A program made the position numbers and the translations under genes. Below are positions 3,422 to 33,544 of a DNA stretch of 64,000 bases, piece by piece (the stretch's first letter is position 1; every line of letters begins with the position of its first letter). Below the pieces are notes generated by a model that searched no databases, had not been told where the DNA came from, and saw only the letters and a program-made list of their open reading frames with translations. Source of the DNA: Flavobacterium faecale (GTDB lineage: Bacteria; Bacteroidota; Bacteroidia; Flavobacteriales; Flavobacteriaceae); NCBI RefSeq assembly GCF_003076455.1, contig NZ_CP020918.1, forward strand, positions 3,508,001 through 3,572,000. The letters are read 5' to 3'.

Positions 3422-4845
3422 ATGAAATCAAGTAGATTTATAATGATGTTGTTATTTGCTAATATCATAACTTTAAATGCACAGCATAAGTAACCTAATA
3501 TTCTATTTATTTCAATAGATGATTTAAGACCCGAACTACATGCTTACGGTGTTGCAGATATGATTACTCCCAACTTAGACGCCATCGCAGCACAAGGCAG
3601 ATTATTCAAGAGGCATTATGCGCAAGTCCCAACTTGTGGCCCATCACGAATGGTAATGTTAACCGGGAAAAATTTAACTTCTAGTGATGAAATTTCACAT
3701 CCACTTTTAGGAAATAGATTAGCTGGAAAACCAGAGACAGACAATCCAGAAACTTTTATTCATCATCTAAAAAGGAATGGGTATTATACGGTGGGAATGG
3801 GGAAAATCAGCCATAGTATCAGCGGAAGAAGAGGCAAAGAATTAGAATTACCTCATAGTTGGAATGATTTTATCACTAATCCAGATGCTTTTCAAATGTA
3901 TGCTGGTGGCGAGCATCGAGACGCTAAGAAAACACCCCCGTTTGAAATGTTGGATGTTGCCGATGAGGTATATCCTGATGGTAGAGTGGCACAATTTGCG
4001 GTAAAAGAATTAGAAAAAAGAGCCAATGCCAAACAACCATTTTTTATGGCAGTAGGTTTCCTTAGGCCACATTTGCCTTTTTCTGCTCCAAAAAAATACT
4101 GGGATTTGTATTATAGATCGAAAATGAATTTGTCACCCAATCCCGATGCTCCAAAAAATGTAGCTGATGAGTTTTTACACAATAGTGAAGAATTTTTTGG
4201 ACAGTATTATTCTCCTGAAAAAGGAGGTGCTCGTAAACGCATTTCAGATGCTTATGCCAAACAAATTATTCATGCCAATCACGCTGCAGTTTCTTTTGTA
4301 GATGCTCAAGTGGGCAAAGTGATGGATAAGTTAAAAGAATTGGGACTGGACAAAAATACGATTGTCGTAGTTTGGGGAGATCACGGTTGGCATTTGGGAG
4401 ATCAAACTATTTGGGGAAAACATAGTGCTTTCGAAAATGCATTAAATAGCGCCATGATTGTCAAAACACCTCAGATGAAAAAGCAGCAGTTCCGTCAAAT
4501 AGTCTAATTGCTTCGGTAGATATTTATCCTACCCTATGCGAATTAACAGGAATTCAAAAACCCAAAGGACTAGACAGTACAAGCTTTGTTCCTATTCTTG
4601 AAAATCCAAAGACTGAAACTCGAACAGAAGTATTCAGTTATTGGAAAGATGTTGTAAGTATGCGTACAGATCGGTACCGATTAGCAATTTACAATAACGG
4701 CAAAAAGCAAAAAATGATGTTGTATGATCATCTAAAAGACCCTCATGAAACTGTAAATATAGCAGAGGAAAGTCCCAAAATTATAGCTGAATTATTGCCT
4801 TTGGTAAAAAATAGGAACAATGGGTATCTAACTCAAATTAAGTAA
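3422..4845 (+). pseudogene. S1-family sulfatase (iduronate-2-sulfatase-like), disrupted by a nonsense codon and a frameshift
   Basis: The apparent start at 3422 encodes a signal peptide (MKSSRFIMMLLFANIITLNAQ) and then hits an in-frame TAA at codon 24, exactly where sulfatases read (K)PNILFISIDDLRPEL; that sequence follows directly in the same frame. The formylglycine motif is intact as CGPSR in VPTCGPSR. The frame breaks again at about 4480-4507, after TPQMKK, where loss of one A from an A run would explain the change; the frame then resumes as AAVPSNSLIASVDIYPT and runs to 4845 with an S1-type ending (LYDHLKDPHETVNIAEE). With two lesions the protein is unlikely to be made. S1_7-like sulfatases are common in red-algal galactan loci. 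Confidence 0.85.
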
Positions 4846-7414: not shown

Positions 7415-10309
7415 TTAGTACCATTGACTTAATTCAAAATTATTCAACCACACGGCTGCACCTTTTGGGTCTTTAAAAATAATTTTAACTGGATTTATTC
7501 CGTCCGATTCAAAATACTGTGTACTGTTACCAAAAGATTTATTTTGCATATCACTTCCTTCTGTTACTACACTATTTTCTTTTACTGTAGTTCCGTTTTT
7601 ATCGGTAGTACTGATGTTTATTTTTTTAGCATACGGAATTTGGTAAATTTTGTAAGTCGCCGCTTTTTCCTGGTTAGGATCCATACTGTCTGTATTGGTT
7701 CTTGGGGCATGGTGTACCGTTTTTAGTTGGTATTTTCCTTTTTTAAGTCCCGTTAATTCTAGCGATAACCCCTCTTTGGTAGCGCCTAAAACACCATCTC
7801 CACAAGCAAATCCATACTTACCAATAACATTAATTTCGCCCAACCATCTTGTGTTTTCAACTTTGCCGATAGCTTCGATTTTGGCTGTAAATCCACCCAT
7901 CTCGCTGAAGGTTTTAATGCCTGCATTGTTGTCGTTTCCGTTCCAAGGAGTCCAATCAAATTGTACCAATTGATCGTTTCCTCCCAAATCTACTTTTATT
8001 TGTTCTAAATCGTGAATGGTTTCTGGTTCGAATGCGTTGTCATCTACTTTGGTACTCATGATACTAGCTTTGCCCGACTTTAAACCTTTCGCGAAAGCGG
8101 TAACTTCAATTTTTCCAACCGCTGTACCAGCCTGAATCAAGACGGGTGCAACCCCATGAGTCGTAAACATTGGGTTGGAATGTGCGGCCGTTTGATCCCC
8201 AACAATAGTAGCGTTTCCTTTTACCGAAAAACTAATATCCATATCCACTTCTTGCAATATCGTACCGTTTTTGTCGACTACTTTGGCGTAGCCTACGATA
8301 ATATCCGACCCATCAGCAGTCAATTTTCGCCCCTCTGAATCCAATTCCAAAATTATATGATCTGGAGCTTCGGGCGTCATTTTGGTATCGCTAGACATTT
8401 TTTGTCCTTCGACCAAACCATTAGCGGTAAGCGTCCCTTTTTCGAAATTTTCTATTTTAAAATGAAAAGGAGCATGCTTTAGATTTTTATAATCATCTTT
8501 GATCGTTGGAGATTGCGTTGCAATTATTTTTCCGTTCAAAACCAATTCTACTTGATCGGCGTTGCTGTACACAATTACTTCTTGCGTTCCTTCTTTCCAA
8601 TCGGTTTCCAATCGTGTAAAAGGCACTTTGGTCAACTCCGACTGATACCAAAAAAGTCCCGGTCTTGGGTATCTAAAAACCGTCATCATACCGCTACGAC
8701 TTTTATCTCTTTTGTCTGGATTAGGGTGAAAAGTATAATAAGCATGCGCCGTCCAAGCGATATGACCAATTTTCATTGGGCTACTCATAAAGTCGTTTAC
8801 CGCTTCGGGACCACGTTTTCCTTCCATGGCTAGAATAGGTTCGTCACCGCTCCAATAATAATCACCGTAAATCATTTGTGCAAAAATATCGGTCAGTCCC
8901 GAGTTTTGCCATCCTGTCCAGCGGCTACTTTGCGAAGCCGTAAATCGAGTTGGGTCTTCTTGTTTCATTATATTGTGCGCTCTTGGCACATAACCACGAT
9001 GATTGATTCCGGCTCCCCAAATAAAGACTGACGGGTGGTTGCGGTGGTTGCGCACCATGGTTCTAGCGGCTTTTTCATAATTATCAAACCATTCGTTGCT
9101 ACCAATAGACATCCAAGTTGGTGCTTCTTCATAAATCAAAATTCCCAATTCGTCACAAGCCTCAATAAAAGCGTTATCATGCGGATAATGTGCGGTGCGA
9201 ATGACATTCATACCCAATTTTTTGATTTGCAAAGCATCTTTATAATGTAACGAATTAGGCATTGCATCTCCTATAAAACCATAATGTTGATGGCGGTTGA
9301 CACCAATTAACTTAATCGGCTTTCCGTTTAGCAATACGCCTTGCATATTGTTCATTTCGATTTTTCTAAAACCCATTTTACATTCGGTTTCATCTACTAG
9401 TTTTCCGTTTTCAAATACGGTGGTATTCACACGGTACAAATACGGATTATCCGTTGACCACAAATGAAAATCGTCTTCAATACTACCTATTTCGTTAAAC
9501 TGAACTTCATTTCCTGCACCAATTTCTTTGGTTTGCGAAAGCTTCAAAACCACCAGTCCGTTCTTATCTACCAATCGATTGACAACAGTAGTTTTTTGCG
9601 TTTGGTTGGTTTCATTTCGAACTCCCGTTTTGATATTTACAGTACCATTCAAATTGATTGGGTCTACCGTAGGCGTGGTTATATTTTGTCCCGAAATATC
9701 CGATTCCCAATTGAAAGTCACGTGCGTCGGATTGGTTTCAACCAAATACACATCACGGTACAAACCTCCAAATTTGATATAATCCATAGGTCCTGGATCG
9801 GGCGGAATAATATCGCTTTTGCGGTTGTCGGCCTTTACTGTTACTTGATTTTTACCGCCATAGGTCACGTATTTCGAAATATCAAAATGAAAGGGCGTAT
9901 ACCCTCCTACCGCATATTCTCCCACATGTTTACCATTGACCCATACATTGGTCACTTGATGTACGCCTTCAAATTCTAGAAATACTTTTTTGGATGTATC
10001 TGCCGTAACCGCAATATCTCTGCGATACCAACCTACGTTTCGCATAAAGGTTTTTTGGTATTTATCATCTTGGTTTCCGTTCAAATCCATCGATGTCAAT
10101 TCTAAGGAATGCGGAACATTGACAGACTCCCATTTTGAATCGTCTAATTTTTCGGTGTATAAAGCACCATCGGGATCACCCAAATGAAATTTCCATCCAA
10201 AATTGATGCTTTTTTTGGTTCGCGTTCCTTTCTCCTGTTGGGTCTGACTATGCACGTTCAGGGTGCAAATGAAGCATAGCAGGCTAAGTATTTGAATAGT
10301 TTTTTTCAT
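7415..10309 (-). CDS. GH2 family beta-galactosidase-like enzyme with altered acid/base motif
   Basis: 964 residues with a signal peptide (MKKTIQILSLLCFICTLNVHSQ). The order is a GH2 sugar-binding domain (about 35-190), an Ig-like domain (about 195-318), a TIM barrel (about 320-620) and C-terminal beta domains. The barrel shows NVIRTAHYPH and the nucleophile region AMEGKRG with Glu496. Where most GH2 enzymes have N-E for the acid/base (as in SIGNE), this protein reads WGAGINHRG, so His437 replaces the catalytic Glu. It is the last gene of the GH43-GH16-GH2 operon (31 bp after GH16). It probably acts on galactose ends of agar or porphyran oligosaccharides, but the altered motif may mean a different mechanism or substrate. 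Confidence 0.88.
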   Translation of the reverse strand: MKKTIQILSLLCFICTLNVHSQTQQEKGTRTKKSINFGWKFHLGDPDGALYTEKLDDSKWESVNVPHSLELTSMDLNGNQDDKYQKTFMRNVGWYRRDIAVTADTSKKVFLEFEGVHQVTNVWVNGKHVGEYAVGGYTPFHFDISKYVTYGGKNQVTVKADNRKSDIIPPDPGPMDYIKFGGLYRDVYLVETNPTHVTFNWESDISGQNITTPTVDPINLNGTVNIKTGVRNETNQTQKTTVVNRLVDKNGLVVLKLSQTKEIGAGNEVQFNEIGSIEDDFHLWSTDNPYLYRVNTTVFENGKLVDETECKMGFRKIEMNNMQGVLLNGKPIKLIGVNRHQHYGFIGDAMPNSLHYKDALQIKKLGMNVIRTAHYPHDNAFIEACDELGILIYEEAPTWMSIGSNEWFDNYEKAARTMVRNHRNHPSVFIWGAGINHRGYVPRAHNIMKQEDPTRFTASQSSRWTGWQNSGLTDIFAQMIYGDYYWSGDEPILAMEGKRGPEAVNDFMSSPMKIGHIAWTAHAYYTFHPNPDKRDKSRSGMMTVFRYPRPGLFWYQSELTKVPFTRLETDWKEGTQEVIVYSNADQVELVLNGKIIATQSPTIKDDYKNLKHAPFHFKIENFEKGTLTANGLVEGQKMSSDTKMTPEAPDHIILELDSEGRKLTADGSDIIVGYAKVVDKNGTILQEVDMDISFSVKGNATIVGDQTAAHSNPMFTTHGVAPVLIQAGTAVGKIEVTAFAKGLKSGKASIMSTKVDDNAFEPETIHDLEQIKVDLGGNDQLVQFDWTPWNGNDNNAGIKTFSEMGGFTAKIEAIGKVENTRWLGEINVIGKYGFACGDGVLGATKEGLSLELTGLKKGKYQLKTVHHAPRTNTDSMDPNQEKAATYKIYQIPYAKKINISTTDKNGTTVKENSVVTEGSDMQNKSFGNSTQYFESDGINPVKIIFKDPKGAAVWLNNFELSQWY

Positions 10310-26845: not shown

Positions 26846-27652
26846 ATGGAATCAAAATTTAGAACTACCGAAATTTCGAACCCCGAATTCGAAAGCAACA
26901 ACCTCCGTTTTATCACCGTGAAAACGCCCAATTTGCAAGGGCGTGGTGATATTTGTGTGTTTGTGCCTCCGATGAAAGATTTAAAAAATGTTCCAATAGT
27001 CACGCTCTTACACGGTGTGTATGGTAGCGCGTGGATCTGGGCACATAAGGCAGGAGTTCATTTGACCGCCTTAAAAATGATGCAAGAAGGAAAAATAAAA
27101 CCCATGGTTTTGGCCATGCCATCCGACGGATTGTGGGGCGATGGCTCTGCTTACTTGCCTCACAATGATAAGAATTTTGAATCTTGGATTGTTGATGATG
27201 TTGTAAATGCGGTGATCGAAAATATTGATTGCACCAGTTCGACTTCTGATTTGTTTATCTCAGGTTTGTCCATGGGCGGATTTGGAGCTTTGCATCTAGG
27301 GGCAAAATACCCGTTACGATACAAAGCTATTTCAGCACATTCGTCTATCACCAACAAAAACCAAATGCCGTTGTTTGTTGAAGAAGACGAAAATCAGTAC
27401 AATCAAGTCAATAGTTCTGACGAAGATGTTTTGGAAACCATCTTAAAAAACAAGACAGAACTCCCCTATTTGCGATTTGATTGTGGAAAAGACGATTTAT
27501 TGATTGAGCACAATCGGCTTTTGCACCAGCAATTAAACGAAGCTAACATCAATCATACCTATGAAGAGTTTGAAGGTGCTCATGAGTGGGCGTATTGGCA
27601 GGAACATGTTCAAGATAGTTTGTTGTTTTTTAGTCAATTTGTGACACTTTAA
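26846..27652 (+). CDS. Esterase D / S-formylglutathione-hydrolase-like alpha/beta hydrolase
   Basis: 268 residues with no signal peptide, so cytoplasmic. The oxyanion segment is LLHGVYG (55-61), the nucleophile elbow is GLSMGG with Ser142, an acidic residue lies in the RFDCGKDDLL segment and the likely His is in GAHEWAYW near the C-terminus. Fold and motifs match the esterase D family, which includes S-formylglutathione hydrolases and CE1-type esterases. It starts 4 bp after the GH2 stop. Because the locus contains demethylation genes that yield formaldehyde, a formaldehyde or ester-clearing role is possible, but deacylation of imported sugars is equally likely. Confidence 0.82.
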   Translation: MESKFRTTEISNPEFESNNLRFITVKTPNLQGRGDICVFVPPMKDLKNVPIVTLLHGVYGSAWIWAHKAGVHLTALKMMQEGKIKPMVLAMPSDGLWGDGSAYLPHNDKNFESWIVDDVVNAVIENIDCTSSTSDLFISGLSMGGFGALHLGAKYPLRYKAISAHSSITNKNQMPLFVEEDENQYNQVNSSDEDVLETILKNKTELPYLRFDCGKDDLLIEHNRLLHQQLNEANINHTYEEFEGAHEWAYWQEHVQDSLLFFSQFVTL

Positions 27653-27671
27653 AATATTATTTTTCAAGTAC

Positions 27672-27715
27672 AAAAACCCAATCTAGTACCATATTTGTAT
27701 TAGATTGGGTTTTTC
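27672..27715 (+). terminator. Rho-independent terminator after esterase
   Basis: A 14-bp stem (AAAAACCCAATCTA / TAGATTGGGTTTTT) with a ~15-base loop ends the GH16-GH2-esterase run and marks the left edge of the accessory island. Confidence 0.85.
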
Positions 27716-27808
27716 TTTGTCTTATTTTGTAATCAATTCAAAAAATGGTTTTGAAGATTGCCTAGTTGAATAGTTGCTTCATTAGGACTTGGACTGTAGA
27801 CTGTTTTG

Positions 27809-27834
27809 TTTCCTTTTACAATTGTAAAGGGAAA
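27809..27834. repeat. 26-bp near-perfect palindrome
   Basis: Arms TTTCC(T)TTTACA and TGTAAA(G)GGAAA are centred on AATT, with one mismatched pair. It lies in the 360-bp gap (27653-28012) before the trypsin-like gene and has no T run, so it looks more like a protein-binding site or recombination remnant than a terminator. Otherwise the gap holds no gene I can support. Confidence 0.5.
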
Positions 27835-27945
27835 GAATGCCCCCAGACTTTCCGGGATCATTCTTTAGGCTGTTTAGGGTTGTATTTACGAGTATTTATA
27901 AATGACAGAAAAAACTTTGGTTATAATTTTGAGTATTCAGAAAAA

Positions 27946-27980
27946 ACGCATAAACTTGCGTATATATACAAGTTATGCGT
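27946..27980. repeat. attC-like palindrome upstream of the protease gene
   Basis: Arms ACGCATAA-CTTG and CAAG-TTATGCGT flank a CGTATATATA centre, with one bulged A. It lies 32 bp before the protease start. The right arm GTTATGC is near the GTTRRRY core of integron attC sites (one mismatch). It is shorter than a standard attC, so the identity is tentative. Confidence 0.45.
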
Positions 27981-28012
27981 CAGCTTAAAAAAAACATAAA
28001 ACGAAAAAAAAA

Positions 28013-28840
28013 ATGGATTTATCAATATCAGAACAATTAACTTACTCGACAGTTAGAATTGAATGTGAATTAAAAACTGGTGGAACTTCCACTGGTACAG
28101 GTTTTTTCTTTAACTTTCTTGAAGACAAAACGAGTAATACTCACGTACCAGTTGTAGTAACGAACAAACACGTAATAAAAAACGCTTCAAAAGGAAAACT
28201 CATCATTACTAAAGCTAATGAAAAAGGAGAACCAATTGACACTGAACATTTCACGCTAGCATTTGATAATTTTGAAAGTTTTTGGCGACTACATCCCGAA
28301 GCTGATGTGGATTTATGTGCAATGCCAATTGCTCCTTTTGTAAATGAAGCACAAAAAAGAGGAGACAAATTGTTTTATATTCCTTTTACAAAAGACCTTT
28401 TACCAACCGAAAAACATAAAGAGGAATTGACCGCAATTGAAGATGTTTTAATGATTGGTTATCCAAATGGAATCTGGGACTCTGTAAATAATATGCCGAT
28501 TTTCCGAAAAGGTACAACAGCAACAAATCCTTTGATAGACTATAATGGTAAAAAAGAAATTATGATTGACATTGCCGCTTTTCCTGGTTCTAGCGGTTCG
28601 CCTGTTTTAATTTTTAACGAAGGTGGCTATCGAGACAAAAAAGGGAATACTTATATGGGTGCAAATAGAATTATTCTCCTTGGGGTTTTATTCGCAGGTC
28701 CACAAGCAACAGCGACAGGAGAAATTGTAATGACACCAAATTTGCAAAGACCAATTTCTGTATCGCAAATTCCAAATAATTTAGGACTAATTATTAAATC
28801 TGAAAGAATAATTGAAATGGAAAAATTATTCAATCAATAG
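28013..28840 (+). CDS. Trypsin-like serine protease, single-gene cassette candidate
   Basis: 275 residues with no signal peptide or membrane segment, so cytoplasmic. It is a chymotrypsin-fold protease with triad His53 (TNKHVIKN), Asp100 (ADVDLCAM) and Ser194 (GSSGSP). There is no PDZ domain, so it is not DegP/HtrA-like. Cytosolic trypsin-like domains of this sort occur in accessory regions and as effectors in some anti-phage systems, but no partner gene lies next to it here. It is bounded by two attC-like hairpins (27946-27980 and 28851-28908), suggesting it arrived as a mobile unit. Function unknown; defence is a hypothesis. Confidence 0.82.
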   Translation: MDLSISEQLTYSTVRIECELKTGGTSTGTGFFFNFLEDKTSNTHVPVVVTNKHVIKNASKGKLIITKANEKGEPIDTEHFTLAFDNFESFWRLHPEADVDLCAMPIAPFVNEAQKRGDKLFYIPFTKDLLPTEKHKEELTAIEDVLMIGYPNGIWDSVNNMPIFRKGTTATNPLIDYNGKKEIMIDIAAFPGSSGSPVLIFNEGGYRDKKGNTYMGANRIILLGVLFAGPQATATGEIVMTPNLQRPISVSQIPNNLGLIIKSERIIEMEKLFNQ

Positions 28841-28850
28841 AAAGCCGAAC

Positions 28851-28908
28851 GCATAACAGCTAAGGTTTCATTGGGCTTGAAAAGCCAACAATGAAATCGC
28901 GGTTGAAC
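28851..28908. repeat. attC-like recombination hairpin downstream of the protease gene
   Basis: The element starts 10 bp after the protease stop. GCATAAC at its left end resembles R'' (RYYYAAC, one mismatch) and GTTGAAC at its right end (28902-28908) fully matches the R' core GTTRRRY. Between them is a nested hairpin (GGTTTCATTG...CAATGAAATC, with GGCTT/AAGCC inside). Length, core and foldability fit an integron attC site. No integrase gene is in the window. Confidence 0.5.
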
Positions 28909-28964
28909 GGAACCGCTCTACTTCCGCCACTATGGGGATATCGATAAACAAGTTTAGGTTATTT

Positions 28965-28992
28965 AAGAGGACAAAACGTCCTCTTTTTTTTG
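28965..28992 (+). terminator. Rho-independent terminator in the island
   Basis: Stem AAGAGGAC / GTCCTCTT with loop AAAAC and a run of T. It lies between the protease unit and the DUF4062 unit, so the two are transcribed separately. The rest of the 28909-29044 gap shows no gene. Confidence 0.75.
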
Positions 28993-29044
28993 AGGAATAA
29001 TATGCTTTGTACTATTTTGTTCTTCTTCCGAATTTTTAGAAGAA

Positions 29045-29184
29045 ACCAGCTTATTACTCGGTATTCCTGTGATAAGTTGCATACTTAAATGTTCGACTTT
29101 TCTTTCGAATATTTCAATTATTTATTTATATTTGAGAGAAACAAACGGAGGTTTTTCAAAGACTGACGTTAGTAGCAATTATTC
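29045..29184 (+). repeat. 5' module, copy 1 (140 bp), with embedded promoter
   Basis: This region aligns along its whole 140-bp length with 30490-30629. Shared blocks include ACCAGCT, TCCTGTGATA, ACTTTTCT, a TTCAATTA run, TATTTGA, GGTTTT-TCAAA and CTGACGTTA. It ends 26 bp before the DUF4062 start. TATATTTG at 29127-29134 matches the Bacteroidota -7 consensus. The module looks like a portable promoter/leader. Confidence 0.75.
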
Positions 29185-29210
29185 GTAAAAATTAAAAATT
29201 CAGTTAATTA

Positions 29211-30224
29211 ATGTCAGATATAAAAAAATATTCCGTTTTTGTAAGTTCAACTTATCAAGATTTGATTGAAGAAAGAAAAGAAGTTATTCAAGCTCTTCTT
29301 GAATTAGATTGCATTCCAATTGGAATGGAATTATTCCCTGCAACCGATGATGACCAATGGACATTAATCAAAGAATTAATAAACGAATGTGATTACTACA
29401 TTTTAATAATTGGTGGTCGTTATGGCTCATTAAACAAAGAAGGAATTAGTTTTACCCAAATGGAATATGAATATGCTATTGAAATTGGAGTTCCTGTAAT
29501 TTCATTTCTTCATAAAACTCCAGGTGAAATCAAAAGTAGTAAAACAGATAGAGATTCTGAAAAAGAGCAAAAACTTGAAAATTTCAGAAAAATTTCTTCA
29601 GAAAAATTAATTAAATATTGGAATTCTCCTGAGGAACTAGGCTCAATCGTTAGTAGAAGTTTAATAAAATTAATTAAGACAAAACCAAGAATTGGTTGGG
29701 TAAAATCTGATAGAGTTAGTTCAGACGAAGCAAATTTAGAAATTTTAGAACTGAAACAAAAAATTCAAGAATTAGAAAATGAAATTAAAAAATCAGAAGA
29801 AAATATAAATAAAGATTTGCTACAAGATGATGATATTTTTATTGTAAAATATGGTTATAAAATTAAAAAATATGACAGTTGGGACCAAAAAACAATAGAA
29901 GTAGAGTGGAATACCTTATTTGCAAAAACCTGTGCTATATTAATAGATGAAGCAAAAGAAGAAGATTTTAGATTAAGAATTGATTCTTATATTAAGTATT
30001 TAACAAAAATAGAAGGCTTTGAATATGAATTAGTTAATTTATTTTCAGATAATTTTTTATCAATTTTAATTCAATTAAAAGCTCTAAACTTAGTAGAAAA
30101 AAGTGATAAAAAAAGGTCTCTAAAAGACAATAGTACATATTGGAAATTAACCAAAAAAGGGGATAATTTAATAACAAAATTAAGAGCAATCAAAAGAGAA
30201 AACGAATTTATTGATGCAGAATAA
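29211..30224 (+). CDS. DUF4062 (TIR-like) protein with coiled coil and C-terminal domain of unknown function
   Basis: 337 residues with no signal peptide. The N-terminal ~95 residues (KYSVFVSSTYQDLIEERKEV ... YYILIIGGRYGS ... SFTQMEYEYA) are a DUF4062 domain, a Rossmann-like fold related to TIR domains and often found at the N-terminus of signalling NTPases and putative immunity proteins. A short acidic/basic coiled coil lies at about 184-205 (ELKQKIQELENEIKKSEE). The C-terminal ~120 residues are unrecognised and look helical (winged-helix-like end KLTKKGDNLITKL). No NTPase domain is attached. The base composition is more AT- and Lys/Ile-rich than the surrounding glycosidase genes. A defence or stress-sensor role is inference. 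Confidence 0.82.
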   Translation: MSDIKKYSVFVSSTYQDLIEERKEVIQALLELDCIPIGMELFPATDDDQWTLIKELINECDYYILIIGGRYGSLNKEGISFTQMEYEYAIEIGVPVISFLHKTPGEIKSSKTDRDSEKEQKLENFRKISSEKLIKYWNSPEELGSIVSRSLIKLIKTKPRIGWVKSDRVSSDEANLEILELKQKIQELENEIKKSEENINKDLLQDDDIFIVKYGYKIKKYDSWDQKTIEVEWNTLFAKTCAILIDEAKEEDFRLRIDSYIKYLTKIEGFEYELVNLFSDNFLSILIQLKALNLVEKSDKKRSLKDNSTYWKLTKKGDNLITKLRAIKRENEFIDAE

Positions 30225-30234
30225 AATTAAAACT

Positions 30235-30290
30235 GCCAGCTGTCCGAAGTATTCATTTAAACTAAAATTGAATCATACCGCTTTGCGAAT
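30235..30290 (+). repeat. 3' module, partial copy A (tandem duplicate)
   Basis: This is the first 57-bp unit of a tandem pair; it repeats with a 57-bp period into copy B (TGTCCGAAG at 30241 and 30298). The shared core is ATTCATTTAAACTAAA followed by TTGAATCATACCGCT. Confidence 0.75.
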
Positions 30291-30480
30291 GCCCAGCTGT
30301 CCGAAGTATTCATTTAAACTAAACTTGAATCATACCGCTGTGCGAATGTCTCCTGACTTCGCACACAATCCAATTATCCATCCAGTTTTGGGAATTAGTG
30401 TCCGAAAAAATATCCTTTTCAATAAGTAAATGATCCACTATGCGGGACAGGCTATTCGTCGCAATGACCGAAGTCGATTG
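30291..30480 (+). repeat. 3' module, copy B, after the DUF4062 gene
   Basis: It aligns with 30980-31200, which follows the MNT gene: ATTCATTTAAACTAAACTT, ATACCG-TGTGC-AATGTCTCCT, ACACAATCCAATTAT, TTGGGAAT and, later, GGCTATTCGTCG and AAGTCGATT. Copy B contains a perfect 8-bp hairpin (TGTGCGAA at 30339-30346 and TTCGCACA at 30358-30365). Confidence 0.75.
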
Positions 30481-30489
30481 TCAATTGCA

Positions 30490-30629
30490 ACCAGCTGATT
30501 ACACAGTAGTCCTGTGATATACTGCATATTTAACATACAACTTTTCTGTTGAATAGTTCAATTAATTACATATTTGAAAGAAATCAACGAAGGTTTTTTC
30601 AAACACTGACGTTACTAGTAATTATATCC
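30490..30629 (+). repeat. 5' module, copy 2, before the MNT gene
   Basis: This is the second copy of the 140-bp leader seen at 29045-29184. The -7-like site reads CATATTTG (one mismatch to TAnnTTTG). It directly follows the 3' module of the previous unit, giving the order gene, 3' module, 5' module, gene. Confidence 0.75.
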
Positions 30630-30672
30630 AAGAATCGGAAACTTATAGAAACTTTTTCCCTAAATTTGAATT

Positions 30673-30972
30673 ATGATTCTAATAGAACAAAATATTGACC
30701 GTCTAAAAACAATTTGTTCAACATACAATGTGGACAAAATGTATCTATTTGGCTCTGCTTTAAATTCAAACTTCAACGATAAAAGCGATATTGATTTTTT
30801 AGTTAAATTCAAACCTTTTGATTTATCTCAATATTTTGATAACTATATAAATCTGAAAGAAAATTTAAAAATTTTATTCGGAAGAGAGGTTGATTTACTT
30901 GAAGAGCAAACACTTAAAAATCCAATTTTAATAAATTCCATAAACAAATCTAAAGAGCTTATTTATGGATGA
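30673..30972 (+). CDS. Orphan MNT-type minimal nucleotidyltransferase
   Basis: 99 residues. The DNA polymerase beta-like nucleotidyltransferase motif is complete: FGSAL (Gly27-Ser28) and SDIDFLV (Asp39, Asp41), with the third acidic residue Asp74 in REVDLL. This is the MntA/MNT fold, usually the antitoxin of HEPN-MNT toxin-antitoxin pairs, where it AMPylates the HEPN partner. No HEPN (HepT) gene is found before or after it; the next sequence is a non-coding repeat. It may act on a partner encoded elsewhere, or its partner was lost during transfer. It lies between 5' module copy 2 and 3' module copy C. Confidence 0.85.
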   Translation: MILIEQNIDRLKTICSTYNVDKMYLFGSALNSNFNDKSDIDFLVKFKPFDLSQYFDNYINLKENLKILFGREVDLLEEQTLKNPILINSINKSKELIYG

Positions 30973-30979
30973 GAGAACT

Positions 30980-31200
30980 TCAGATGTCCAAACTATTCAT
31001 TTAAACTAAACTTCTATAATACCGATGTGCAAATGTCTCCTAACTTCGTACACAATCCAATTATGCATAAAAGCTTGGGAATGAATATCACAACAGCTGC
31101 TTAATTTCAATTAATAACTGATGCATTATACGTGATTACTTTCCCGTAAAAGCGGAATAGGCTATTCGTCGAATTTCCCTAAGTCGATTACCAATACCAA
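30980..31200 (+). repeat. 3' module, copy C, after the MNT gene
   Basis: A diverged copy of the module at 30291-30480. The hairpin equivalent (TGTGCAAA / TTCGTACA) is degraded. The order of the shared blocks is conserved. Confidence 0.7.
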
Positions 31201-31293
31201 CTCGCACGAGCACGAGCAGATTGGATTTTTATTCGTCTTTATTCTATTCGAAAAAGAAAATTTCAAGAAGCTAAATGCCTTAAAAACGCAAAG

Positions 31294-31318
31294 CCGAATT
31301 TGATGCACTCAAATTCGA
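31294..31318. repeat. Inverted repeat at the right edge of the island
   Basis: CGAATTTGA / TCAAATTCG is a perfect 9-bp stem with loop TGCAC, 61 bp past the stop of the minus-strand GH86 gene. It lacks a strong T run; it may be a weak terminator for GH86. The remainder of 31201-31378 holds no gene. Confidence 0.5.
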
Positions 31319-31378
31319 CTCTACTAACTTTAAACAAAAAACAATTGGTTTATTTTAAATTAAGAACCAATAAAACAC

Positions 31379-33544
31379 CTAATTTACGATCAACTTCACT
31401 TTGGCCATCGTTGTATTATTTTTCTTTAGTACTACAAAATAAACTCCCTTTGGCAACTTAGCAATTGTGAAATTATTATCTAACTGACTTAGTTTTTCTG
31501 TTTGAACTAAAGCCGATTGCATATTGTAAATACTTGCAGAACTGCCAATCAATTCTTCTACAATTTTTAACGTTACCATATCGCTAGCAGGATTTGGTGC
31601 TAAACTAATTTGCGAATCATATTTAAATGTGTTGGTTGCTAATACTCGAATATTATGACTAAAATTATTTACTTGCATACATACACTACTCACGTTTCCG
31701 CCCGCGTCTGGAAACTGAACTGAAATTACATTGTTCACATCCAAAAGATTGTAGGGCACAGGAATCTCTAAAACTCCAAAAAAAGAATCTCTTTGAGGTT
31801 GATTATCCCCTCTAAAATCGGTTGGAGTTGTGACAAGGGTATTATTCACTTTGATTACAGGAACCAGTGATTTTCCGGTTGCTCTACCCACCCCAATACG
31901 CAAAATAGCCTCGCCATAAGTTGCTTTCGTTATTCCGTTTACATTATAAACCACTGGCGTATTTGCTGCAACAATTGGTTTTAAGTAGTCGTCGGCATAG
32001 TATTTTGTTTCGTCCAAGGTTCTATCAATCGCAATAGGATTGGCAAAAGTATATTCTAAAACAACATGTGACTCTGAACCGATAGTCAAGGACGTAATCG
32101 GAGAAGTTGTTGTTGTTTCTTGTAAATCTGTTTGGTTGGCCGTCAAGGTCAAATAACGTTTTACAATTTGCGTTAAGTTATTAGCATCATGATCAAATAA
32201 ATTTAAATCAATTGTTTTAACTGCTTGCTCTAGATTGTTTATAATCACATATCCTTTGTTGCCATCAACGTAAGCTTTAACTAAAATATCGGGATCGTCT
32301 GATTTGATGTCTACTCGAGTTCCTTTTACATTTTTCCATTGTTGGTAAAACTTCACAAAATCGGTATAAACCCATTGTCCTGTATAACTCGCTGGCTCAT
32401 TGGCCTTGCGCATTAATCGGCTAGTATAAGGAACTCCCGTTGTGCTGTTGTAACCCCATTCTGCTTTTACGATGACAAACGGAATCGCACTAGCAATTGT
32501 GTTGGGTCTTTCTAAAAACGACATCAACATCGAATTGAACGATTTCACATTTAGCCAATCTCTGTACGAACTCCATTGTTGGTTGTTTGAATCATGTGTT
32601 TGTGCTCCATATTCCGAAAGCACATAAGGCTTTACCGACCCTACCGAAAGCATACCATAATGATCCATCATGTCAAATGTGGCTTCAAGATTACTCCCAG
32701 AACGCATCTGACGCTTTCCGCCAATAGTTGGAAAATCATATAAATGAATCGAATAATAATCCATTTTGCTTCCTGCCATATCCATAAACATTTTGTCTCG
32801 GTTAAACCAACGTTGAAACTCCCCTACTTCGTAATACGGAAACGAATTGGTATAGCCACAAATCTTAGTATTTGGCATTTGCGCTCTAATTGCATCGGCT
32901 GCTGCAATGTGAAAATTGGCTATCTCCGCAATCGTTTTGGTATATTCTTTCACACCACCCAATAGTTCATAATCAGGCTCGTTGACAATTTCCAAAAAAG
33001 CAGGTAAACTAGGTCCGTTCCCTCCAAAAAATTCTTTCATAAAACGTCCCATGTATTCTCCTGTAGCAGTTCCGTTGGCTATATTCCATCCTTTAGCTGT
33101 TGGTTTTTGCCCAACACCCGTCCAAAATGGATACAATTGACCCCCAAAAATCATTCCTCCCTTGCGGCTCTCGTATTGCGCTAAATTGGTTTTAGCAGCA
33201 AAACTATTTCGAGATGACAATCCTCTTGAAGCAATATCAGTAGGACTTGCATAACCAGCACGTGCAGGATCCTGTGCCACCTGATTCAAAGTATACGTAA
33301 TCAATCCCGTCTCACGACCCAAATAAACATCCAGTCCGTTTAGGAAATTATTTCGTAGATCACCTATTTGATTGTCTCCATCCCATTCCGTATCCGTTGT
33401 ATTAGAGTGCATCGTAATAAACTTAGAGCGTTCAAAAGTCGAAACGCCACCAACAGTATGTTTGACATTCAAGTTCACAGCTACTTTTACTTGGGCAAAA
33501 AAAGCAGCCGGCACTAAAAGAAGTATTAGGTATTGTTTTTTCAT
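31379..33544 (-). CDS. GH86 beta-agarase/beta-porphyranase with T9SS sorting domain
   Basis: 721 residues with a signal peptide (ending AFFAQ). The (beta/alpha)8 barrel carries the GH86 acid/base Glu189 in LEIVNEPDYE and the nucleophile Glu311 in VLSEYGAQ; the N-terminal FERSKFITMHSN fits the family. Two beta-sandwich domains follow (about 400-640). The last ~75 residues are a T9SS sorting domain (LAPNPASDMVTL ... LPKGVYFVVL), so it is placed on the cell surface or outside. GH86 enzymes cut agar or porphyran internally. A truncated relative lies at 6381-7019. It runs opposite to the following sulfatase. Confidence 0.92.
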   Translation of the reverse strand: MKKQYLILLLVPAAFFAQVKVAVNLNVKHTVGGVSTFERSKFITMHSNTTDTEWDGDNQIGDLRNNFLNGLDVYLGRETGLITYTLNQVAQDPARAGYASPTDIASRGLSSRNSFAAKTNLAQYESRKGGMIFGGQLYPFWTGVGQKPTAKGWNIANGTATGEYMGRFMKEFFGGNGPSLPAFLEIVNEPDYELLGGVKEYTKTIAEIANFHIAAADAIRAQMPNTKICGYTNSFPYYEVGEFQRWFNRDKMFMDMAGSKMDYYSIHLYDFPTIGGKRQMRSGSNLEATFDMMDHYGMLSVGSVKPYVLSEYGAQTHDSNNQQWSSYRDWLNVKSFNSMLMSFLERPNTIASAIPFVIVKAEWGYNSTTGVPYTSRLMRKANEPASYTGQWVYTDFVKFYQQWKNVKGTRVDIKSDDPDILVKAYVDGNKGYVIINNLEQAVKTIDLNLFDHDANNLTQIVKRYLTLTANQTDLQETTTTSPITSLTIGSESHVVLEYTFANPIAIDRTLDETKYYADDYLKPIVAANTPVVYNVNGITKATYGEAILRIGVGRATGKSLVPVIKVNNTLVTTPTDFRGDNQPQRDSFFGVLEIPVPYNLLDVNNVISVQFPDAGGNVSSVCMQVNNFSHNIRVLATNTFKYDSQISLAPNPASDMVTLKIVEELIGSSASIYNMQSALVQTEKLSQLDNNFTIAKLPKGVYFVVLKKNNTTMAKVKLIVN

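Follow-up and report, generated by a model that had tools for sequence, protein, structure and literature searches.

How do three unrelated genes come to stand side by side in a short island of the Flavobacterium faecale chromosome, two of them between the same flanking sequences? The island lies inside a sugar-degradation locus in a stretch of 64,000 nt, here called the window (contig NZ_CP020918.1, positions 3,508,001 to 3,572,000), and consists of three open reading frames (ORFs) between an esterase gene (26846-27652) and a gene on the opposite strand (31379-33544). A first-pass annotation had taken it for a possible cassette array, in which a protease gene is followed by a DUF4062 gene and a gene for an MNT-type nucleotidyltransferase, the latter two each enclosed by a 5' module and a 3' module; the three genes, both module pairs and a 57-bp duplicate are located where it had placed them. 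We propose that the island is very probably a short, decayed array of integron-type cassettes, made up of an attI-like junction and the protease, DUF4062 and MNT units, with a tyrosine recombinase of the kind described below as TR2 as its likely enzyme. Its units look like part of a widespread family of mobile cassettes. The earlier idea of single genes travelling between shared flanks is retained in this proposal, but the modules are not the ends of the units. These are set by short boxes, R' and R''.

Complementary boxes at the two ends of a gene

In the box scheme, R' at the start of a gene is GTT followed by a stretch N, and R'' at its end is the complementary N' followed by AAC or AAT. 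The protease gene (cassette 1) has a box pair of its own that was overlooked in the first-pass annotation, GTTATGCG.. starting at 27972 and ..CGCATAAC ending at 28857. Its R' box (GTTATGCGTCAG, 27972-27983, plus strand) matches the reverse complement of its R'' box (CGAACGCATAAC, 28846-28857, plus strand) at 10 of 12 positions. In the F. faecale genome the bases between boundary and gene vary from gene to gene, yet both ends of one gene are complementary, as in the pair GTTATATGC .. GCATATAAC at genome positions 2741849 and 2741399. We chose the ends from a scan with mismatches that covered 14 stretches and the window, rather than the whole genome; rows with 4-6 or 11 mismatches were judged to be chance and excluded, except for four rows inside the array at locus L064. 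The 24 left halves of hairpins that were kept mostly follow AAC, and of the 14 right ends, 13 terminate at GTT and one at GTA. With one nested copy dropped from the 24, a partner pairing at 10 or more of 12 positions was found for 12 of 23 ends, against 3.6 after shuffling, and one pairing at 11 or more in 5 of 23, against 0.47. Two simpler accounts of the boxes were rejected: target-site duplications of an insertion sequence (IS), because the boxes are inverted and gene-specific, and plain terminal inverted repeats, because the sequence is not constant between units.

The same pairing recurs beyond F. faecale. When named genomes were scanned for the hairpin tip, 109 stretches matched, and 80 of these, in Flavobacterium, Chryseobacterium, Epilithonimonas, Kaistella, Cloacibacterium, Empedobacter, Pedobacter and others, were taken as hairpin loci; they contained 85 hairpins, of which 82 were used and three were dropped for having less than 500 nt upstream. 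An exact 9-nt partner lies 150-3500 nt upstream of R'' for 34 of the 82 hairpins, compared with a mean of 1.07 (standard deviation 1.03, maximum 6.2) when the boxes are re-assigned among loci. Positions 10 to 14, which were not part of the search, pair in 26, 1, 32, 34 and 30 of the 34. Pairing extends across 14 positions and is constantly interrupted at position 11. Not one of the 34 R' boxes fits the core site GTTRRRY, which argues against plain integron membership; it should be mentioned that GTT belonged to the search pattern and RRRY did not. R'' ends in AAC in 12 of the 34.

One ORF per unit points toward R''. The longest ORF of at least 50 aa has this direction in 31 of the 34 intervals, the opposite one in a single interval, and is missing from two; in 19 it occupies at least 85% of the interval. 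The cargo is unrelated from unit to unit: in a scan of 31 cassette proteins, from which the reverse-strand ORF of L148 was excluded, none of the 25 Pfam families shown (of 30) is represented by more than one member; among these families are SUKH, putAbiC, DUF2490, DUF4238, AAA_21 and an Rce1-like family. At least two cassette members have PADLOC matches. No match to the hairpin and no relative of the DUF4062 protein was found in viral contigs, the phage collection lying outside this search.

Boxed genes are also present on plasmids. On one from Tenacibaculum finnmarkense, a DUF4062 gene with 72.8% DNA identity to that of the window lies between the boxes GTTAGGCACAATTA and AAACTGTGCCTAAT and is flanked on either side by likely cassettes. 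On a Chryseobacterium plasmid the 5' module abuts R' of one boxed gene; farther along, a restriction endonuclease gene is likewise boxed. The pairs named for L102 and L101 were picked from 11 (core of 7) and 21 (core of 6) because they bound genes, and in L102 the annotated coding sequence 3909-4280 starts 6 bases ahead of its box. Past R'' of two units on the Tenacibaculum plasmid and of one on the Chryseobacterium plasmid there are group II intron matches in antisense orientation. These Rfam matches (D1D4-3 and D1D4-1; in L101, Intron_gpII) are about 300 nt past R'', and intron-like sequence can be recognized by eye directly 3' of it. In a plasmid search with the MNT protein, all relatives were below 60% identity.

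We suggest that each cassette comprises a single gene, or a short pair of genes, and begins with bases (R') complementary to those with which it ends (R''). On circularization these ends would be brought together around the hairpin and would rebuild the recombination site, so that arrays could grow and shuffle through site-specific recombination at GTT. The site would be recognized as a folded single strand.

A tyrosine recombinase beside the first unit

The first-pass annotation saw no integrase, which is correct for the island; tyrosine recombinases are nevertheless encoded elsewhere in the genome. One of them, TR2, is a protein of 367 aa (genome positions 2350964-2352064). Its gene is followed by ..GAGTTGCGTATATTAAAGA|GTTGTGCGTCAG, by two genes and then by ..CGAACGCACAAT. 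The junction word TTGCGTATAT..A.RA|GTT is common to this site and to the window, where a candidate attI-like right end (CGCATAAACTTGCGTATATATACAA, 27946-27971, plus strand) stands directly 5' of R' of cassette 1 and may drive expression. Exact matches of the word are confined to these two places in the genome, and a similar junction also precedes an MNT/HEPN unit ending at 2742455. In Cloacibacterium normanense (L176), a TR2 relative with an open reading frame is separated by an attI-like junction from two linked boxed units beyond its 5' end, and Chryseobacterium sp. MFBS3-17 (L165) has the same layout with a relative that carries a stop codon. By position and by sequence, an attI-like site beside an integrase gene and with a first cassette is present in F. 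faecale, at L176 and, with the broken recombinase, at L165.

Of 296 genomes from the phylum, 93 encode TR2 relatives at E ≤ 1e-40. Forty such recombinase loci were compared, 28 with full-length proteins and 12 with proteins lacking the N-terminal part; loci L290-L301, intended as controls (recombinases without the N-terminal extension), carry boxed arrays and cannot be counted as such. The full box signature occurs 76 times around the 40 loci and 12 times in reversed sequence, and 19 loci have at least two signatures, against one after reversal; among these 19, the genomes of L292 and L298 also hold a true IntI. Outside the island, 55 kb of window sequence yield one signature. This signature test took the place of a 6-nt chain test that proved too noisy. 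At L300, in a single-contig genome of the same family, nine units form a chain in which seven appear clear by eye and neighbors are 111-140 nt apart, and four of six sites fold better than their shuffles (z -2.3 to -7.4).

With the integron integrase model (cut-off 265) TR2 reaches 199.1 bits, and with NF040815 (cut-off 220) it reaches 202.5. TR1, a second recombinase that is carried together with a Y2 transposase, scores 176.6 bits with the former, and for both proteins the nearest models are those of integron integrases and Xer. The genome has 14 matches to TIGR02249, none of them above 265 bits. TR2 aligns to VchIntIA (2a3v) in two pieces, with IntI residues about 215-247 unmatched; judged from its sequence, it lacks the IntI-specific insertion, and eight TR2 relatives checked by eye are also without it. 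In a tree of 62 recombinases, IntI forms one clade (100/100), as do the TR1 rows (99/85, or 100/100 with a further IS91-borne row). TR2-like rows are spread over several clades outside IntI, with L286 beside IntI (82/96) and L284_0 with Xer, in a tree whose long branches leave the deep order unsure. The AlphaFold model predicted for TR2 was of low quality (mean pLDDT 64.8) and was set aside. Of the 296 phylum genomes, 84 have a true IntI over the cut-off, and almost all of these lie outside the class (G436, G650, G437 and others); within the class, one of 395 genomes has it.

The units could be true integron cassettes even if their enzyme were TR1 or Xer instead of TR2. TR1 and TR2 both fall short of 265 bits with the integron integrase model, and TR1 elements are lodged inside attC-like sites. 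However, it is TR2 relatives that adjoin the first cassette of arrays in several genomes, and there are arrays where TR1 was not seen, though it was not sought across those whole genomes. We regard TR1 or Xer as a rather doubtful choice and favor as the likely recombinase a tyrosine integrase of the TR2 kind, which adjoins the attI-like junction and a boxed unit.

Several results weigh against the reading as an integron-type array. The junction word with up to two mismatches is unenriched genome-wide (9 occurrences, 13 in the reversed control), and because the word alone is not enriched, the attI-like call rests on position. The TR2 relatives of L165 and L160 carry a stop codon, and the recombinases of the F. 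faecale genome are below every integron cut-off. A looser chain test is weakly above its control (chains of at least five at 10 of 40 loci, compared with 3), two of the six L300 sites fold no better than shuffles (z near 0), and 48 of the 82 hairpin loci are without an exact partner. In the window itself, R'' is absent in two of the three cassettes, 2 and 3, both of which keep R'. No empty island site was found: relatives of the esterase occur in 3 of 149 other genomes of the genus, and the 31379-33544 gene is absent within 1.5 kb on each side of those three. No recombination or circle was observed, and exchange is what the sequences suggest.

Origin of the shared flanks

The two copies of the 5' module correspond at 29044-29088/30489-30533 (82%) and 29152-29182/30595-30625 (90%), and those of the 3' module at 30294-30402/30981-31089 (83%) and 30442-30491/31152-31201 (78%); the tandem duplicate (30236-30291/30293-30348) is 96% alike at a spacing of 57. 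As a query, the 5' module finds 10 places in the 4.62-Mb genome including itself (E 4.5e-68 to 3.2e-10); the second window copy is missing from those 10 rows and was recovered with another query. It precedes different genes at nine further genome places and recurs on the Chryseobacterium plasmid ahead of yet another gene. The matches of the long 3' module in its own genome are its two window places and three 34-nt matches, and it was rejected as a general cassette end because its matches are confined to the window. The first-pass annotation had named occurrence only here, or always with the same two genes, as the sign of a simple duplication; this describes the long 3' module and does not describe the 5' module. 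The 34-nt pieces of the 3' module (..GCAAATGTCTCCTGACTTTGCACAC..) stand between other genes at genome positions 3617416, 3621010 and 3621264 (L013-L015), near an MNT-like gene of 306 aa.

Read on the minus strand, the 5' module encodes M-Q-H-I-T-G.., which begins a transposase carrying DUF772 and DDE (DDE_Tnp_1_6) domains; the first window copy reads M-Q-L-I-T-G... Transposases starting inside the module were found at L101 and L066; the protein is complete, in two ORFs, on the Chryseobacterium plasmid, and a full gene is present in the F. faecale genome. We take this combination of transposase domains to denote the IS1182 family. A tail with a terminator-like hairpin and a T run (28897-28995, plus strand) follows the protease gene. 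In a complete copy elsewhere in the genome it leads to an IS91-type Y2 transposase and to the tyrosine recombinase TR1; the transposase (Zn_Tnp_IS91 plus Y2_Tnp) adjoins the tail at L065, and the window keeps the tail only. The 5' module and the protease tail are thus IS remnants between genes. Elements of the IS91 and IS1182 types have probably invaded the sites of this genome and left much of what the flanks have in common. A search of the island with Rfam gave nothing close to a gathering score.

An element of the IS91 type with TR1 and the Y2 transposase was seen at L065 (genome positions 3772709-3774975) and at L126, L163 and L198 (CP051546.1). It ends with the hairpin on one side and with ..GGTTTAGTTCAAC on the other. 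At L126, L168 and L180 it is followed by an apparent second, longer attC-like site.

One may ask whether such an element moved the units by itself, through one-ended rolling-circle capture as in ISCR, with modules and boxes as by-products of its ends. The Y2 transposase or its recombinase is detectable at 35 of 90 loci searched, mostly near the hairpin, and several NK2020 copies have one right end in common. This explanation is nevertheless improbable, since boxes bound genes without a visible IS91 end in the Tenacibaculum plasmid array, at L300 and in other arrays beside recombinases, and one-ended transposition would not yield gene-specific complementary ends with a constant mismatch. A plain local duplication of two neighboring genes with their flanks may well explain the part of the island in which units 2 and 3 share both modules, the long 3' module being window-only, but as an account of the whole it is highly improbable given the nine further places of the 5' module, the unrelatedness of the DUF4062 and MNT genes and the difference between their R' boxes.

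Relation to integrons and remaining parts of the island

CALINs are clusters of attC sites lacking an integrase. The boxed arrays have in common with integrons and CALINs the single-gene cassettes in one direction, the complementary R' and R'', the attC-like hairpins, a tyrosine recombinase beside the first-cassette junction, and sites that harbor group II introns and IS elements. In contrast, the recombinase here is without the IntI insertion, R' is not GTTRRRY (0 of 34), the pairing has 14 positions with the mismatch at position 11, and the arrays of F. faecale are small and dispersed. Complementary cassette ends, and one gene per cassette directed toward attC, were both found; an IntI-family integrase with the additional domain was not found in the F. 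faecale genome. The system would work like an integron. We do not class it as one of the IntI type, since two of the defining features were looked for and not found.

The antisense placement of the group II intron matches beyond R'' resembles that of group IIC-attC introns, for which passages of PMC7923331 record an antisense position after cassette ends. The IS91-type element resembles IS91/ISCR in its Zn_Tnp_IS91 plus Y2_Tnp transposase and in that its end follows the hairpin, and differs in having a tyrosine recombinase aboard and an attC-like hairpin as one end; units without the element also exist. TR2 and TR1 are like the "integron-like subgroup" of simple tyrosine recombinases (PMC8138268) in their nearest models. 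Passages of the same paper state that the insertion is incompletely conserved in this subgroup, yet essential for function, and in those of PMC2426708 intI genes were selected by that insertion. For Bacteroidetes, passages of the IntegronFinder 2.0 paper (PMC9024848) give only In0 previously, and one complete integron, in Salinibacter ruber. Among the matches listed in the open-licence literature, no title or start of an abstract dealt with such cassettes in Flavobacteriia; subscription papers and preprints were outside this search.

On balance we are inclined to regard the system as a second kind of integron in the class Bacteroidia, with an integrase without the IntI additional domain, an R stem of 14 positions with an obligatory mismatch at position 11, and sites other than GTTRRRY. 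It would supply scattered chromosomal loci as well as plasmids with many unrelated accessory genes, would have been taken up by an IS91-type transposon, and would be nearly uncounted in IntI-based surveys. If this is true, the cassette pool of Flavobacteriia and their relatives is largely uncounted, because searches require the IntI extra domain and GTTRRRY-type sites. A long-standing question, whether recombination of folded attC sites requires the additional domain of IntI, would also become testable.

The remaining parts of the island can be placed in this frame. The gene of cassette 1 (28013-28840, plus strand) encodes a trypsin-like protease of 275 aa (PF13365; PADLOC candidate family PDC-S45, E 8e-117), and 3' of it stands the left half of an attC-like hairpin (AGCTAAGG-TTTCATTGG..CCAACAATGAAA, 28858-28896, plus strand). 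The first 5' module (29045-29167, minus strand), the 5' end of the IS1182-type transposase gene, ends in ACTGAC before the GTT of R' of cassette 2 (GTTAGTAGCAAT, 29168-29179, plus strand). A promoter within each unit, as the first-pass annotation had suggested, is weakly indicated by TAnnTTTG, presumably the Bacteroidota promoter consensus, at 29127-29134 of this copy and in imperfect form in the second. The gene of cassette 2 (29211-30224, plus strand) encodes the DUF4062 protein of 337 aa (PF13271), for which no PADLOC family was matched. An intact R'' is absent before the 3' module (30236-30489, plus strand, including the 57-bp tandem duplicate), and a remnant, AACTGC, is seen at 30231-30236.

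The second copy of the 5' module (30490-30610, minus strand) is followed by R' of cassette 3 (GTTACTAGTAAT, 30611-30622, plus strand) and by the gene for the MNT-type nucleotidyltransferase of 99 aa (30673-30972, plus strand; Polbeta/MNT, PF18765/PF01909; PADLOC PDC-S09), which scores 44.4 bits with the MntA model (cut-off 60). Its HEPN partner would begin at 30966, of which the 3' module (30980-31201, plus strand) leaves by eye the first codons only; unlike this copy, the MNT unit at genome positions 2742424-2743207 retains the partner gene. No R'' is seen 5' of this module. Since cassettes 2 and 3 are without an intact R'' and the HEPN partner is cut, the end of the array appears worn. It is noted that both copies of the 3' module stand where R'' is absent.

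L064 (genome positions 3709813-3719922) holds an array whose units include a second DUF4062 gene (3713116-3714114), an 805-aa gene and, by eye, a VapBC-like pair, with remnants of IS1182-type and IS91-type elements between units. Group II introns or reverse transcriptases were seen near junctions at L057, L064, L069, L070, L101 and L102, antisense after R'' where they could be placed. Downstream of the group II intron reverse transcriptase of L069, a Flavo-1 RNA (RF01705) is matched at 7438-7514 with 49.7 bits.

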